Origin: Thermosipho ferrireducens
GTDB lineage: Bacteria > Thermotogota > Thermotogae > Thermotogales > Fervidobacteriaceae
Assembly (NCBI RefSeq): GCF_017358165.1
Contig: NZ_CP071446.1
Coordinates: 806,001-870,000 of the forward strand
Length of the DNA stretch: 64,000 nt
Reading direction: 5' to 3'
The notes beneath the pieces were generated by a model. It worked only from the letters and a program-made list of their open reading frames with translations. It was not told the origin of the DNA and searched no databases. A program made the position numbers and the translations under genes. This document shows, piece after piece, positions 58,418 to 64,000 of the stretch; within the stretch, counting starts at the first letter, position 1, and every line of letters begins with the position of its first letter.

Positions 58418-59446
58418 ATGATAACAGAATCTTTGAAGAGGGTAATGAGTTTTGCCTGGAGGAATAAAACAATCACTGCTAAACATTTGTCAGATTCTCT
58501 AAATTTAGAAAAATCGACAGTTTCAAGAAATATTTCTAAGTTAAGACGGAAAAATGTTTTGGTAAAAGTAGATGAACTTTCTCCTTCGGCCCTTGGTGGA
58601 AGGAAGACTATTGTATATTCTTTCAACAAAGATTTTGCAAATATTCTTGGGATTTCAATTGAACAGGATGGGATTGAATATGTAAAAACAAATCTTTTTT
58701 CAGAAATAGTTTTTAAAGAAAGAATAAATGTGAGAGTATCTCAAGAAAATATTATAGAAGAGGTAGATAGAATAATTCAAAAACATCCAGAAGTTATTGG
58801 GATTGGGATTTCGGTTCCAGGTATTGTTGAAAATAACATTGTCATTTTTTCGGAAGCGTTAAAGTTGAAAAATTTCAGTGTAGAAAAGGTAATGAAAACT
58901 GAAATACCAATATTTGTCGAGAAAGATTCTTTATGTGGAGCTATACGTCATTCTCTGAATAAAAGGAATATTATTTATTTCCAGTTTTCTATACCTTATT
59001 ATGTGAATGAGCCAGTAGGATTTGGTGTAGGAATTGTAATTGATGGGAAACCATATTATGGAAGCAACAATTTTGCTGGAGAATACAAAATAAATAAATG
59101 TATTTTTAATAAGAAAATATTGTTTGAGGATTTTTTGAGAATGAAAGTTGATGTGAAAAGCTTTTTTAAAGAAATTTCTAAAAAAATGGGGATAATTTCA
59201 AGTGTTTTTGATCCAGAGATAGTTGTAATAGGTGGAAATATAGCCTATATTCCGCAGGTAGAAATGCTAAGGACTCTTTTAGAAAACGAAATATATATGA
59301 TAGAAGAAAGGAATATGGAAATATTGATAGAAGATATGAAAGAATTTGTAAATGCTGAAGGAGCTGCTATTAAAGTTTTAAATGCTATTTTTTCTGAGGA
59401 TAAATGGCTGGAATATTTTTATAGAAAGGTGGTAAATGATGAATAG
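58418..59446 (+). CDS. ROK-family transcriptional regulator
   Basis: This 342-residue protein has an N-terminal winged helix-turn-helix (about 5-60, ITAKHLSDSLNLEKSTVSRNISKLRRKN) and a ROK domain (about 75-325, with GIGISVPGIVENN and FDPEIVVIGGNIA). The zinc-binding cysteine cluster typical of many ROK proteins is absent. This is a NagC/XylR-like sugar-responsive repressor. It is the first gene of an operon with a GH3 enzyme and a sugar ABC transporter, so the inducer is probably an amino sugar or its oligomer. The start follows GGAGGG. Confidence 0.9.
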   Translation: MITESLKRVMSFAWRNKTITAKHLSDSLNLEKSTVSRNISKLRRKNVLVKVDELSPSALGGRKTIVYSFNKDFANILGISIEQDGIEYVKTNLFSEIVFKERINVRVSQENIIEEVDRIIQKHPEVIGIGISVPGIVENNIVIFSEALKLKNFSVEKVMKTEIPIFVEKDSLCGAIRHSLNKRNIIYFQFSIPYYVNEPVGFGVGIVIDGKPYYGSNNFAGEYKINKCIFNKKILFEDFLRMKVDVKSFFKEISKKMGIISSVFDPEIVVIGGNIAYIPQVEMLRTLLENEIYMIEERNMEILIEDMKEFVNAEGAAIKVLNAIFSEDKWLEYFYRKVVNDE

Positions 59447-60782
59447 AGAATTTGGTAACCTTTTTTTTATAGGATTTCAAAAAGAGTTTAATAAGCAAAT
59501 AGTTGAAAAAATTAATCCAGCGGGGGTAATTCTATATCCTAAAAACATGGAAGATATTTATAAGATGCAGGTAAACATGGAAAGAATTTATTCTTTACAT
59601 GATAAAGGGTATCGGCTTTTTATTACATCAGACCATGAGGGAGGACAGCTTGAAACTGTACCTAATATATTTCCTTCTCCTGGAAATCTTGCATTGGGGA
59701 AGACTGGGAATGTTCGTAGCTTTGGGGAGTATCTTGGTTATATGTTTAAAGCACATGGGTTTAATATGGTATTTGCACCAGTAGTAGACGTTGCTTATAC
59801 ATATTCCAGCCATGTAACAGGATATAGAGCATTTTCTTTTAATTACAAAGTGGTTGAAAAACAAGCTAAAGAATTTTTACTTGGTTTATCTAAAAATAAA
59901 ATAGCGGCGACACTGAAACATTTTCCAGGACATGGAAAAGCTAAAGAAGATTCTCACTTTACTTTGCCAGTTGTGAATGATTTTGAAGAAAATGATGACG
60001 ATATAGAAATATTTAAATCATTAGCCGAAGATGTTGATTTTATAATGACTGCACATGTTTTATATCCTAAGGTAGATGATGTAATAGCAACTCTTTCAAA
60101 AAAGTTTTTGACGGATATTTTAAGAAAAAAGTTTAACTACAAAGGATTAGTAATTTCTGATGCATTTGAAATGAAGGCGTTGTATAAAAGTTATTCAGAA
60201 AAAGAAGTTATTAAGAAATTTTTTGAAGCAGGAGGAGATATTGTATTAATAGGAGATATAGAAAATCATTATCACTTTTTTGAAACTTTCAAGACAATGG
60301 TTGAAAATGGAGAACTTGATGTTGAATTGTTGAAAGAGAAAGTAAAAAAAGTTGAAAAAATTAAAGAAAAGTATGTAACAAAAGATTATCCTACCAGATT
60401 CTTGTCATTTGCTGCAAGAGATGCTATTGAGCATAACCTGAGTGCTCCTGTTGAAACTCCTGCTTTCTTAATTCCACAGCCAAAAAACCTGAGTCTTGCA
60501 GATACTTCAGAAAAAGATCTAAAACATTTAGAAAACATTATTCGTGAAGAATTTCCAGAATCAAAGGTTTATAGAGAGAAAGAGATGGAAAAGATGAATT
60601 TTCAAGACACAGTTGTCTATTTTGTAGTTGACCAAATAAAAAAAGTAAAGGCTAAAAGAGTAATATACATCTTTTTACGTAAGTTTTTCGATGTCGAAAA
60701 TGAATACATAATTCCATATTCTTCTAAACTCATTTCAATTTATCATGTATTACAACTTTTAAAAGGGGAGGGATCATTATGA
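59436..60782 (+). CDS. GH3 beta-N-acetylhexosaminidase-like enzyme
   Basis: This 448-residue protein has the NagZ-type GH3 active site KHFPGHG (161-167) followed by DSH at 172-174, whose Asp/His dyad acts as general acid/base. The nucleophile is Asp242 in VISDAFEM. It has no signal peptide, so it acts in the cytoplasm on imported oligosaccharides such as chito- or muropeptide-derived sugars. The C-terminal 120 residues form a further domain. The gene overlaps the ROK stop and the next gene by 4 bases, so all are translationally coupled. Confidence 0.9.
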   Translation: MMNREFGNLFFIGFQKEFNKQIVEKINPAGVILYPKNMEDIYKMQVNMERIYSLHDKGYRLFITSDHEGGQLETVPNIFPSPGNLALGKTGNVRSFGEYLGYMFKAHGFNMVFAPVVDVAYTYSSHVTGYRAFSFNYKVVEKQAKEFLLGLSKNKIAATLKHFPGHGKAKEDSHFTLPVVNDFEENDDDIEIFKSLAEDVDFIMTAHVLYPKVDDVIATLSKKFLTDILRKKFNYKGLVISDAFEMKALYKSYSEKEVIKKFFEAGGDIVLIGDIENHYHFFETFKTMVENGELDVELLKEKVKKVEKIKEKYVTKDYPTRFLSFAARDAIEHNLSAPVETPAFLIPQPKNLSLADTSEKDLKHLENIIREEFPESKVYREKEMEKMNFQDTVVYFVVDQIKKVKAKRVIYIFLRKFFDVENEYIIPYSSKLISIYHVLQLLKGEGSL

Positions 60783-61987
60783 AAAAGTTTGTTGTGATTT
60801 TGTTAGTTTTGATCGCACTTGTTAGTTTTTCAAAGACAAAACTCACGTTCTGGGGATTTATGATGAATGATGAGCATGCAAGGAAAGTCCTTGAAAAATT
60901 CGAGAAAGAAAATCCTGATATTGAAGTTGAATATGTGCAACTTTCCTGGGCAAATGGATTTGATAAGATAGTTACTGCAATAGCCGGTGGAGAATCTCTT
61001 GATGTAGTGGAACTTGGAAACACATGGGTTGCCAATTTTGCAGAAAGGAAAGCACTGGAAAGCATGGATGTTTTTTATAAAAACTATGGAGATAATTATA
61101 TCGGTTGGAACACAGTATATTACAAGGGTAGTTACTGGTCAGTTCCGTGGCTTCTTGGAACAAGAGCCCTTTTTTACAATTTAGAGCTTTTTGAAAAAGC
61201 GGGGCTTGATCCGGAGAATCCACCTGAGACATGGGAGGAATTATATGTAGCAGCGAAGAAAATTGATGCGCTTGGAAATGAGATTTACGGCTTTGGAATG
61301 CCAGCAGGAGAAAGCTATAGTCCATGGCAGCAGTGGTTTTTACCAGCTGTGTGGGGAACTGGTGGAGATATAATTTCAGAAGATGGTGCAAGAGCTTTTT
61401 TAACGTCCTGGAGAGTTAGGCAAACAGCAGAATTTTATAAAGCTCTTTCTGAATATTCGTTAAAAACTAAGCAGGCTGACCTTGCTAAAGCGTTTGGTGA
61501 GGGAAAGATTGGAATGTATGTGAGCGGGGCATGGGATATTGATTATTTAGAAACTAATTATCCAGAAACACCGTTTAATGTTGTTTTTATTCCGAAACCC
61601 GCAGCCTGGTTTGGGACTCATGCATCGTTTGCTGGTGCAGAAGTTCTGGCTATCATGAAACACTCAAAGCATAAAAAAGAAGCACAAAAACTCGTAGAAT
61701 TCCTTATAAGACCGGATGTTGCAATGGAAGTTGCAATGATCTGGCCTGCAATTTTCCCCTCACATGTTGATGCAGGAAAAGATCCGTGGTTTGAAGATCA
61801 TCCAATGCATAAAGTCTTTTATGAGCAAAATGCCTATGCAAAACCCGTTCCTTCAATCCCGGCGTGGCCAAAAGTTCAGGCGTTACTTACAGAAGCTATA
61901 GAGAAAATAATACTTCAAAATGAAGATATTGATTCTATTTTGTTTGAATACAACAGAAAAATTCAGAAAGTATTAGATGAAGAATAA
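60779..61987 (+). CDS. sugar ABC transporter substrate-binding protein
   Basis: This 402-residue exported protein has a signal helix (KKFVVILLVLIALVSFS) and the family 1 solute-binding pattern: KLTFWGFMMND, AIAGGESLDVVELGNTWVANFAERKAL and FGEGKIGMYVSGAW. The binding cleft is rich in Trp, as expected for oligosaccharides. No lipobox cysteine follows the signal region. It is coupled to the GH3 gene by ATGA overlap and is followed by a stable hairpin, then two permease genes. Confidence 0.93.
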   Translation: MKKFVVILLVLIALVSFSKTKLTFWGFMMNDEHARKVLEKFEKENPDIEVEYVQLSWANGFDKIVTAIAGGESLDVVELGNTWVANFAERKALESMDVFYKNYGDNYIGWNTVYYKGSYWSVPWLLGTRALFYNLELFEKAGLDPENPPETWEELYVAAKKIDALGNEIYGFGMPAGESYSPWQQWFLPAVWGTGGDIISEDGARAFLTSWRVRQTAEFYKALSEYSLKTKQADLAKAFGEGKIGMYVSGAWDIDYLETNYPETPFNVVFIPKPAAWFGTHASFAGAEVLAIMKHSKHKKEAQKLVEFLIRPDVAMEVAMIWPAIFPSHVDAGKDPWFEDHPMHKVFYEQNAYAKPVPSIPAWPKVQALLTEAIEKIILQNEDIDSILFEYNRKIQKVLDEE

Positions 61988-61993
61988 AAAATT

Positions 61994-62014
61994 CCCCCTG
62001 CGTTCAGCAGGGGG
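61994..62014 (+). other. hairpin between binding-protein and permease genes
   Basis: CCCCCTGC / GCAGGGGG form a perfect 8-bp stem with a GTTCA loop, 6 bases after the binding-protein stop, and no T tract follows. Such hairpins after binding-protein genes can stabilise the upstream message and let it accumulate above the permeases. Confidence 0.7.
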
Positions 62015-62029
62015 ATAGGGGTGATCAGA

Positions 62030-62908
62030 TTGAAAAGAAAAACGCGTTACGGATTTGAAACTTTTCTCCTTCTATCTCCTTTTTTGATACTTTTTGTTGT
62101 TTTTGGAATTTTTCCTATATTATACTCATTTTTTATGAGTTTTACAGATTATTCGGCATTGAGTCCGGAATATAACTTTGTAGGATTGAAAAATTATATA
62201 AAAGCATTTAATGATGAAGTTTTTTTGATATCGCTTAAAAATACAACAATATTTGTAATAGGTACAATTCCGTTTACAACAGTTTTTTCCTTATTGCTTG
62301 CTGTATTAATTAATAGTAAATTCTTGCCGTTAAAAGATTTGTTTAAAGCTGGTTTTTTCTTACCATCTGTTGTATCAATGGTGGTTATTGCAACAATGTG
62401 GATGTATCTTTATAGTGCCGATGGTTTTTTTAACAAAATGATAGAATTCTTTGGGGGAAATGCACTTTCCACAAGCTGGTTAGCTCACACAAAAACAGCG
62501 CTTTTATCCATTATGATAATGGATATCTGGGCGGCCATAGGATATTATACCATACTATTTTTGGCGGGGCTTCAAAGTATTCCTCAGCAATTATATGAAG
62601 CCGCATCGATCGATGGAGCAAATAAAATAAAGACCTTTTTTAAAATAACACTTCCACTTTTAAAACCAACATTGTATTTTGTTATAGCTTTAAATACAAT
62701 AAGATCTTTTCAGATCTTTTCAGAGATTTTTACAATGACAGGTGGAGGACCTATGAATTCTACACAAACGATTGTTCATTATCTTTACATAGTAGGATTT
62801 AGAAACTTTGATATGGGCTACGCCTCTGCCATAGCATATATACTTGTTTTCATAATATTAACGGTAACTATAGTTCAAGGGAAACTTCTTAGGAGTGAAA
62901 ATATATGA
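62030..62908 (+). CDS. ABC sugar permease, MalF-type (CUT1)
   Basis: This inner-membrane permease of about 292 residues has six helices and the EAA loop EAASIDGANKIKTFFKITLPLLKP near residue 195 that contacts the ATPase. The sequence FPILYSFFMSFTDYSALSPEYNFVGLKNYIKAF is typical of CUT1 MalF-type subunits. A TTG at 62030 after AGGGGTGAT is preferred over a GTG at 62021 inside that site. The stop overlaps the next gene by 4 bases. Confidence 0.93.
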   Translation: MKRKTRYGFETFLLLSPFLILFVVFGIFPILYSFFMSFTDYSALSPEYNFVGLKNYIKAFNDEVFLISLKNTTIFVIGTIPFTTVFSLLLAVLINSKFLPLKDLFKAGFFLPSVVSMVVIATMWMYLYSADGFFNKMIEFFGGNALSTSWLAHTKTALLSIMIMDIWAAIGYYTILFLAGLQSIPQQLYEAASIDGANKIKTFFKITLPLLKPTLYFVIALNTIRSFQIFSEIFTMTGGGPMNSTQTIVHYLYIVGFRNFDMGYASAIAYILVFIILTVTIVQGKLLRSENI

Positions 62909-64000
62909 AAAAAGTATTGTTTCTAACTATTATGTTTGCACTTTTACTTGTTTCACTTTTTCCAATGATAGCTATGTTTTACACAGCGGTTATTCCAAGT
63001 GGAAATTTAACAAGAGTAATAAAGGAAAGATATATAAATGATTTTGAAACAAAGTACATGATTTATTTGAGGAGAAAAGTAAAGTCCGGCGGGAAAATTT
63101 CTATTGTTAAAGAGTCGCCTGAGTCAACAAAGTCTATACTTGTAGAAAGAGATGTAACATTATTGGCGGATAAACTTGACATGAGAGTTGCAAAGTATGT
63201 AGAGTTCTGGGTTAAAGGTAAGGGTTCTTTTTCCGTAGAAATACTGGACGCCTTTGGAAAAAGTACAGTAAAAACTTTTTCCGGTAATGATGAGTGGAGA
63301 AAATATAGGATAAAATACAACGAAATGAAGTATATCAATTTAAAATATGTATCTAAAATTATCTTTCGTTTTGATGGGAAACATTACCTTGATGATGTAA
63401 AACTTGTTTATAAATTTCCAGCTTTTTTAAATTTTATAAGCGTATTAAAAGAAGATATGTTTGGAAGGTATATATTTAATAGTTTTCTTGTCTCAAGTGT
63501 TGTGGTTTTAGGGAATATGATTTTCTCGACAATGGTTGCATATGCGTTTGCGAGGAGAGAATTTTTTGGTAAAAATATTTTATTTTCAATAGTACTTATG
63601 ACTATGATGATTCCACCTCAGATTACAATTATTCCTATATTTATTCTTATGAAAAAAATTGGATGGATAGATACGTATTTTGCGCTAACTGTTCCTTTGC
63701 TTGTAACACCATTTAGCATTTTTTTGCTGAAGCAATACATAGAGCAATTGCCAGTTGAGCTTGAACAAGCCGCATATGTAGATGGAGCTAATACATTCCA
63801 GATATTGTTTAAAATAGTGTTTCCACTTACGAAACCAGCGCTCGCAGTTATGGGAATAAACACTTTTATTGCGGTGTGGAACGATCTTTTTTATCCGCTT
63901 GTAATGACAAATTCGCGTGAGATGAGAACAGTTCAGGTGGGACTTGCGCTTTATCAAAAATTAAATCAGGTAGACTGGCCAAGACTAATGGCCGCTTCTT
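62905..64000 (+). CDS. ABC sugar permease, MalG-type, with large inserted domain (3' end outside window)
   Basis: The frame is open from ATG 62905 to the window end (365 residues). After a first helix (about 4-28) comes an extracytoplasmic region of about 160 residues, where MalG-type subunits have about 50. Its core (about 65-170) has a beta-sandwich character, with KYVEFWVKGKGSFSVEILD and HYLDDVKLVYKF, like carbohydrate-binding modules. From about 175 the normal permease resumes (FLNFISVLKEDMFGRYIFNS), with the EAA loop LEQAAYVDGANTFQILFKIVFP near 290. It pairs with the MalF-type permease. Confidence 0.9.
   Translation, partial: MKKVLFLTIMFALLLVSLFPMIAMFYTAVIPSGNLTRVIKERYINDFETKYMIYLRRKVKSGGKISIVKESPESTKSILVERDVTLLADKLDMRVAKYVEFWVKGKGSFSVEILDAFGKSTVKTFSGNDEWRKYRIKYNEMKYINLKYVSKIIFRFDGKHYLDDVKLVYKFPAFLNFISVLKEDMFGRYIFNSFLVSSVVVLGNMIFSTMVAYAFARREFFGKNILFSIVLMTMMIPPQITIIPIFILMKKIGWIDTYFALTVPLLVTPFSIFLLKQYIEQLPVELEQAAYVDGANTFQILFKIVFPLTKPALAVMGINTFIAVWNDLFYPLVMTNSREMRTVQVGLALYQKLNQVDWPRLMAAS

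Follow-up and report, generated by a model that had tools for sequence, protein, structure and literature searches.

The MalG-type permease encoded at the end of the analysed window (the whole stretch of 64,000 nucleotides from Thermosipho ferrireducens) contains, in its first external loop, a beta-sandwich domain that is probably related to CBM11. The gene belongs to an operon whose enzymes point to N-acetylglucosamine (GlcNAc) sugars. The reading that we prefer, with a probability of roughly 0.45, is that the domain helps dock the binding protein of the importer.

An inserted domain in the first external loop of MalG

The malG reading frame (Table 1) begins with an ATG at 62905, has no internal stop and, when completed with DNA of the same genome beyond the window end, encodes 394 residues. 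It overlaps by 4 bases both the upstream malF and the downstream SIS-domain gene. Pfam detected BPD_transp_1 at residues 210–349 (2.6e-18, 66.8 bits versus a cut-off of 26.4) and named no domain in the insert. This match, together with an EAA-type loop in the core (ELEQAAYVDGA) and the gene order, identifies the protein as a MalG-type subunit of a CUT1 sugar ABC importer. The sequence MKK at the start of TM1 places the N-terminus inside, so that the following loop is external. A frame error, a gene fusion artefact or a chance pattern can be dismissed as the origin of the long loop, given the intact ORF and the recurrence of the domain in 28 or more full-length homologues drawn from many assemblies.

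Loop lengths were measured on one alignment, from T27 (the end of TM1) to N192 (the N-S motif at TM2). This span amounts to 166 residues in the window MalG, versus 41 in six ordinary homologues (the three nearest relatives and three Thermotoga ChiG), 39–60 in the MalG paralogues of ordinary size encoded by this genome and 39–43 in most ordinary homologues; the first-pass annotation, which had put the loop at about 160 residues rather than about 50, therefore holds on this point. The nearest ordinary relative reads S-x-KPEGNILP-TWDSLIP-KKVTLRNY...NS, and in the window protein the equivalent flanks, AVIPSGNLT and KFPAFLNF...NS, surround ~133 extra residues (37–170). The region originally assigned to the insert, 62985–63425, brackets its limits as set by homology, 63013–63414.

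When modelled with AlphaFold2 from an alignment of eight sequences, the insert folded into an all-beta sandwich with a mean pLDDT of 78.6 (85–95 in the core blocks). The full-length model repeats this fold, its membrane part being of low confidence (mean pLDDT 62.5). All the motifs that had suggested a carbohydrate-binding jelly roll (VEFWVKG, VEILD, W-x-x-YRIKY, IIFRFDG and YLDDVKL) were found, and they lie on predicted strands (96–104, 107–115, 132–137, 149–156 and 160–169). In a Foldseek search of the PDB, C. thermocellum CBM11 occupied ranks 1–3 (E-values of 8.1e-7 to 1.7e-6, probability 1.00, TM 0.63 by query length). The lower matches were CBM6, CBM29, CBM61 and the complex I assembly factor CIA30/NDUFAF1, which share the galactose-binding-like sandwich. 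The prediction of a beta-sandwich inserted in loop 1 of MalG was thus borne out, as an independent domain in the AlphaFold2 model and as a galactose-binding-like/CBM fold in Foldseek. CIA30 (PF08547), a neighbour by fold, gave no family match in the genome (G000). We hold this description of the anatomy and fold of the insert with high confidence.

Table 1. Features of the operon and of the MalG-type permease, in window coordinates
Feature	Position	Strand	Basis and remarks
ROK-family regulator with HTH (ChiR-like)	58418..59446	+	Pfam
GH3 beta-N-acetylhexosaminidase with NagA_C domain (CbsA/NagZ-like)	59436..60782	+	Pfam 5.1e-56 and 1.9e-17
Soluble substrate-binding protein (SBP_bac_1)	60779..61987	+	Pfam; signal peptide without lipobox cysteine, read from sequence
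malF-type permease, 295 aa, no P2-type insert	62021..62908	+	ORF, Pfam, NCBIfam
malG-type permease gene (chiG-like)	62905..64000	+	394 aa total, last 30 codons past window end (G000:C1:868905-870089); ORF and Pfam
TM helix 1, residues 4–26	62914..62982	+	Predicted helix 2–26; positive-inside rule read from sequence
Inserted CBM11-like beta-sandwich domain (probable), residues 37–170	63013..63414	+	AlphaFold2, Foldseek, hhalign, loop lengths
D46-F47-E48, N-terminal strand motif	63040..63048	+	F invariant in 28 homologues
W131, invariant tryptophan of sandwich	63295..63297	+	Homologue alignment
D163-D164, closing strand (YLDDVKL)	63391..63396	+	D163 invariant, D164 89%
Link F-P-[TA]-[LF]-x-N-[FY], residues 171–183	63415..63453	+	Invariant P172 and N176; corresponds to the 'VTLRNY' segment before TM2 of ordinary MalG
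Transmembrane core, helices from residue 185 on	63457..64000	+	Contains ELEQAAYVDGA; ORF, Pfam, predicted helices

Probable relationship to CBM11

For comparison at the profile level, we used two CBM11-type domains located at the C-termini of secreted Thermotogota enzymes (L152 and L154). The insert scored 94.7% and 90.3% against these domains in hhalign, over ~80 columns confined to the C-terminal half and with few CBM sequences available. In the control runs, 148 unrelated proteins reached at most 1.8%, and shuffled and reversed copies at most 1.1%. The alignment pairs equivalent strands, namely VEFWVKG with LVFYVKG, the W-x-K strand with its counterpart and the closing strand with the closing strand. 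To judge from fold and profile, the insert is probably a CBM11-like domain, homologous to CBM11 by common descent, and the jelly roll of the first-pass annotation was correct as a fold.

The insert shares with the CBM11 of C. thermocellum Lic26A-Cel5E (PDB 1v0a/6r31) and with those of L152 and L154 the beta-sandwich, the strand order and the tryptophan and closing-strand motifs. However, the known CBM11 domains are appendages of secreted enzymes, whereas the insert sits in a permease and its ligand-binding loops have apparently not been kept. No Pfam CBM match was obtained for the window protein or for 13 insert domains (the Pfam CBM_11 cut-off was not reached), a PF03425 search of the genome returned nothing, NCBIfam named no domain on the insert, and a sequence search of the PDB with the single insert gave no match. 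The same database searched with profile A1 yielded sub-threshold matches only, the sensible one being 1gui (CBM of laminarinase 16A) at 0.35; matches to viral capsids, also sub-threshold, were treated as chance.

Distribution and conservation within Thermotogota

Comparison with MalG proteins of other Thermotogae, as proposed in the first-pass annotation, revealed the same insertion across several families of the heat-loving Thermotogota. A search with the loop found a match in 18 of 45 genomes of the order, and further families gained members when a 13-row profile was run on 103 genomes of the phylum; one of the carriers is a Fervidobacterium assembly (contig DJGV01000010). Matches of 20–45 positions at the profile end are ordinary MalG proteins that share the TM2 link. 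A scan of genome contigs returned the domain from Thermotogota only, although it overlooked members already known from other families of this phylum; nothing significant was seen in plasmids and nothing in viral contigs. In the genome G085, one intact copy of an insert-bearing permease (on C15) coexists with three frame-broken copies (on C6, C11 and C12).

When the membrane core was used as the query, all matches of at least 60% identity were found to carry the insert, save contig-end fragments and broken copies, and the next matches (51% and lower) were of ordinary length or had other inserts. A maximum-likelihood tree of the core was built with the insert columns excluded, leaving out L149 (638 aa; broken membrane part) and L014 (431 aa; long branch). 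In this tree, a single branch with support of 100/99 splits off the 28 insert bearers. The computation shows that, within the sampled set, the domain was gained once. No loss of the insert was found in close homologues.

The insert has diverged much more than its surroundings, its identity to members from other orders or families being only 22–31%, against 64–71% for the membrane core and 50–57% for the substrate-binding protein (SBP). In close pairs, dN/dS was 0.06–0.17 for the domain versus 0.00–0.07 for the core; the insert is under purifying selection, less constrained than the core. Across the 28 members, the residues kept in the insert are D-F-E (46–48), D92, D115, W131, D163-D164 and the link P172-x-x-x-N176, and those that are invariant look structural.

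Other large inserts in MalG proteins

Large inserts at this place have been described before: Thermotogales MalG1 and MalG2 have ~500 hydrophilic residues, of unknown function, between TM1 and TM2 (PMC2246101). Three MalG paralogues of the genome studied here also have large first external loops, of 490 (L013:2344-4506, minus strand), 567 (L011:8070-10493, minus strand) and 187 residues (L011:3512-4807, plus strand), all unrelated in sequence to the beta-sandwich insert, and the paralogues of 720 and 807 aa are of the large-insert kind reported in that study. These proteins resemble the window MalG in subunit type, phylum and position of the external insert, but the MalG1/MalG2 inserts are 3–4 times longer, belong to a maltose/mannooligosaccharide clade and could not be related to the present domain. 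The latter, compared by hhalign with the inserts of the 720, 807 and 638 aa proteins, scored 0.1–0.6%, and kinship with them was rejected on this basis; the marginal profile A1 matches to the same proteins covered mostly the insert end and the shared link before TM2. One MalG1-type gene (L149:5786-7699) has its frame broken near the start of the membrane core. Thus, there are at least two unrelated kinds of large MalG inserts in Thermotogota.

Operon context and probable substrate of the transporter

The window operon encodes, in this order, a ROK regulator, a GH3 enzyme, an SBP, MalF, MalG and an SIS protein closest to glucosamine-6-phosphate deaminases. The GH3 product matched NCBIfam PRK05337 at 4e-47 (161 bits, below the 207 cut-off). 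Among the loci of relatives, the ROK–SBP–MalF–MalG set was found in all 20 and GH3 in 14, the other six having GH20 (two) or GH84 (four) in its place according to Pfam scans. A GH18 chitinase gene adjoins malG at one locus (L093). That one transporter is accompanied by enzymes of equal activity from three unrelated families strongly implies GlcNAc oligosaccharides as the substrate, and, on this genomic evidence, the class imported is very likely that of beta-linked, chitobiose-like N-acetylglucosamine oligosaccharides.

We found no gene for a dedicated ATPase (MalK) in the operon (window 58418-62908; L009:2087-3010), implying that the transporter must share an ATPase from elsewhere in the genome. 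This is not a defining lack, because the ATPase gene is likewise missing from the T. maritima mal operons (PMC2246101). In one Thermotogaceae branch (L084:7023-8297, L085:3884-5134 and L086:7577-8845, the last on the minus strand) the partner MalF reaches 417–425 aa, with ~120 extra residues after YLYSAEGPFN that include several hydrophobic stretches resembling additional TM helices. The malF gene in G010 is split into two ORFs (L083:6403-7320).

A known counterpart is the T. maritima operon of chiEFG, cbsA and nagAB, whose ROK regulator ChiR responds to chitobiose (PMC3750489). The ChiR-CbsA-ChiEFG-NagAB arrangement has the same order of ROK, GH3, SBP–MalF–MalG and SIS deaminase (L141, L144 and L145). 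However, Thermotoga ChiEFG is a distant paralogue of the window transporter and not its orthologue (25–27% identity for the SBP, 33–35% for MalG, with a 41-residue MalG loop). In the Thermotoga-like genus g13 (L141, L142, L144 and L145), the regulator and enzymes kept beside a non-orthologous EFG set make for an apparent replacement of the transporter in situ. Given that the Thermotoga loci, alike in regulator and enzymes, have a MalG of ordinary loop length, chitobiose import as such does not depend on the domain.

The closest MalG relatives without the insert (L146–L148) have 51% core identity. The loci L147 and L148 contain GH3-like and AnmK- or MurQ-like genes, as read from their sequences only, and this gene content suggests that the sister group transports peptidoglycan sugars.

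Possible roles of the domain

In our preferred reading, which draws on analogy with E. coli MalF, the CBM11-like domain would stand outside the membrane beside the permease entrance. There it would hold or orient the soluble, non-lipidated SBP, a role that falls to the P2 domain of MalF in E. coli; it would raise the chance of a loaded SBP engaging the permease and would not itself select the sugar. An interaction of MalF-P2 with MalE throughout the catalytic cycle is announced in the title of Daus et al. 2009 (cited in PMC3328499). The first-pass annotation had aptly contrasted E. coli MalF, with its large external loop (the P2 domain), and MalG. P2 is also an extracytoplasmic domain of similar size inserted in a CUT1 permease subunit, but it sits in MalF between TM3 and TM4, whereas the present insert lies in MalG between TM1 and TM2, and the two are not known to be related in sequence. 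The operon's own MalF can be aligned to the E. coli MalF model over 258–516 of 520 only; as nothing aligns before 258, it is without the P2 region.

The gradient of identity from core through SBP to domain has the pattern expected of an accessory surface, as opposed to a specificity-giving ligand site. Fast divergence, however, would also fit a loosely constrained role, and Thermotoga ChiEFG, with its ordinary loop, apparently does the same job without the domain. The insert might instead be a structural or stabilising add-on or a steric lid, rigidifying the permease or filling periplasmic space without binding any ligand or particular partner. The tolerance of Thermotogales for very different inserts at this place (loops of 490, 567 and ~190 residues in the paralogues) would agree with such a role, as would the rapid divergence of the domain, but purifying selection, the invariant link residues P172 and N176 and the lack of any loss among the close homologues found make it unlikely.

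A further alternative is that the domain works as a CBM, for chito-oligosaccharides or for the peptidoglycan or outer polysaccharide of the organism itself, concentrating substrate or positioning the permease at the channel mouth. The fold and the probable descent from CBM11 speak for it, as do the operons dedicated to a polymer-derived sugar and the chitinase gene at L093. The ligand-binding residues of CtCBM11, which we take to be Tyr22, Tyr53 and Tyr129, were located through a phmmer alignment of a Thermotogota CBM11 with CtCBM11. In the insert family, no counterparts of Tyr22 and Tyr53 were seen (the segment opposite Tyr53 is aliphatic, in an N-terminal half where the residue alignment is weak) and the loop bearing Tyr129 is shortened, so that the ligand tyrosines seem to have been lost. 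Aromatic residues present in 70% or more of members comprise F47, F101, W131, Y148 (or H) and link residues, most of which would be expected to lie in the core; among exposed aromatics, none is invariant in the 28 sequences. These features argue against a conserved CBM11-type ligand site, although a different site could still exist. The domain also diverges far faster than the SBP. A working CBM, and with it carbohydrate binding by the insert, seems to us rather improbable.

A more specific version would have a CBM captured from a secreted polysaccharide-degrading enzyme bind GlcNAc oligosaccharides or a wall polymer and feed the channel or the binding protein. Such a capture, which we consider improbable, would give the permease an external sugar receptor of its own.

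Significance

In the usual depiction, a MalG-type permease has short external loops. A literature search, with little coverage of subscription journals, retrieved no report of an ABC permease with a CBM-like domain, and a module of this kind inside the channel protein of an importer appears to be undescribed. Large MalG inserts as such are already known in Thermotogales (PMC2246101), and the CBM11-like type is unrelated to them in sequence.

Here, a MalG subfamily has taken up a CBM-like domain at the importer mouth, and the enzymes of its operons point to GlcNAc sugars. Its sister clade and the Thermotoga operon, both with ordinary loops, provide a natural with/without pair for effects on SBP docking or substrate capture.
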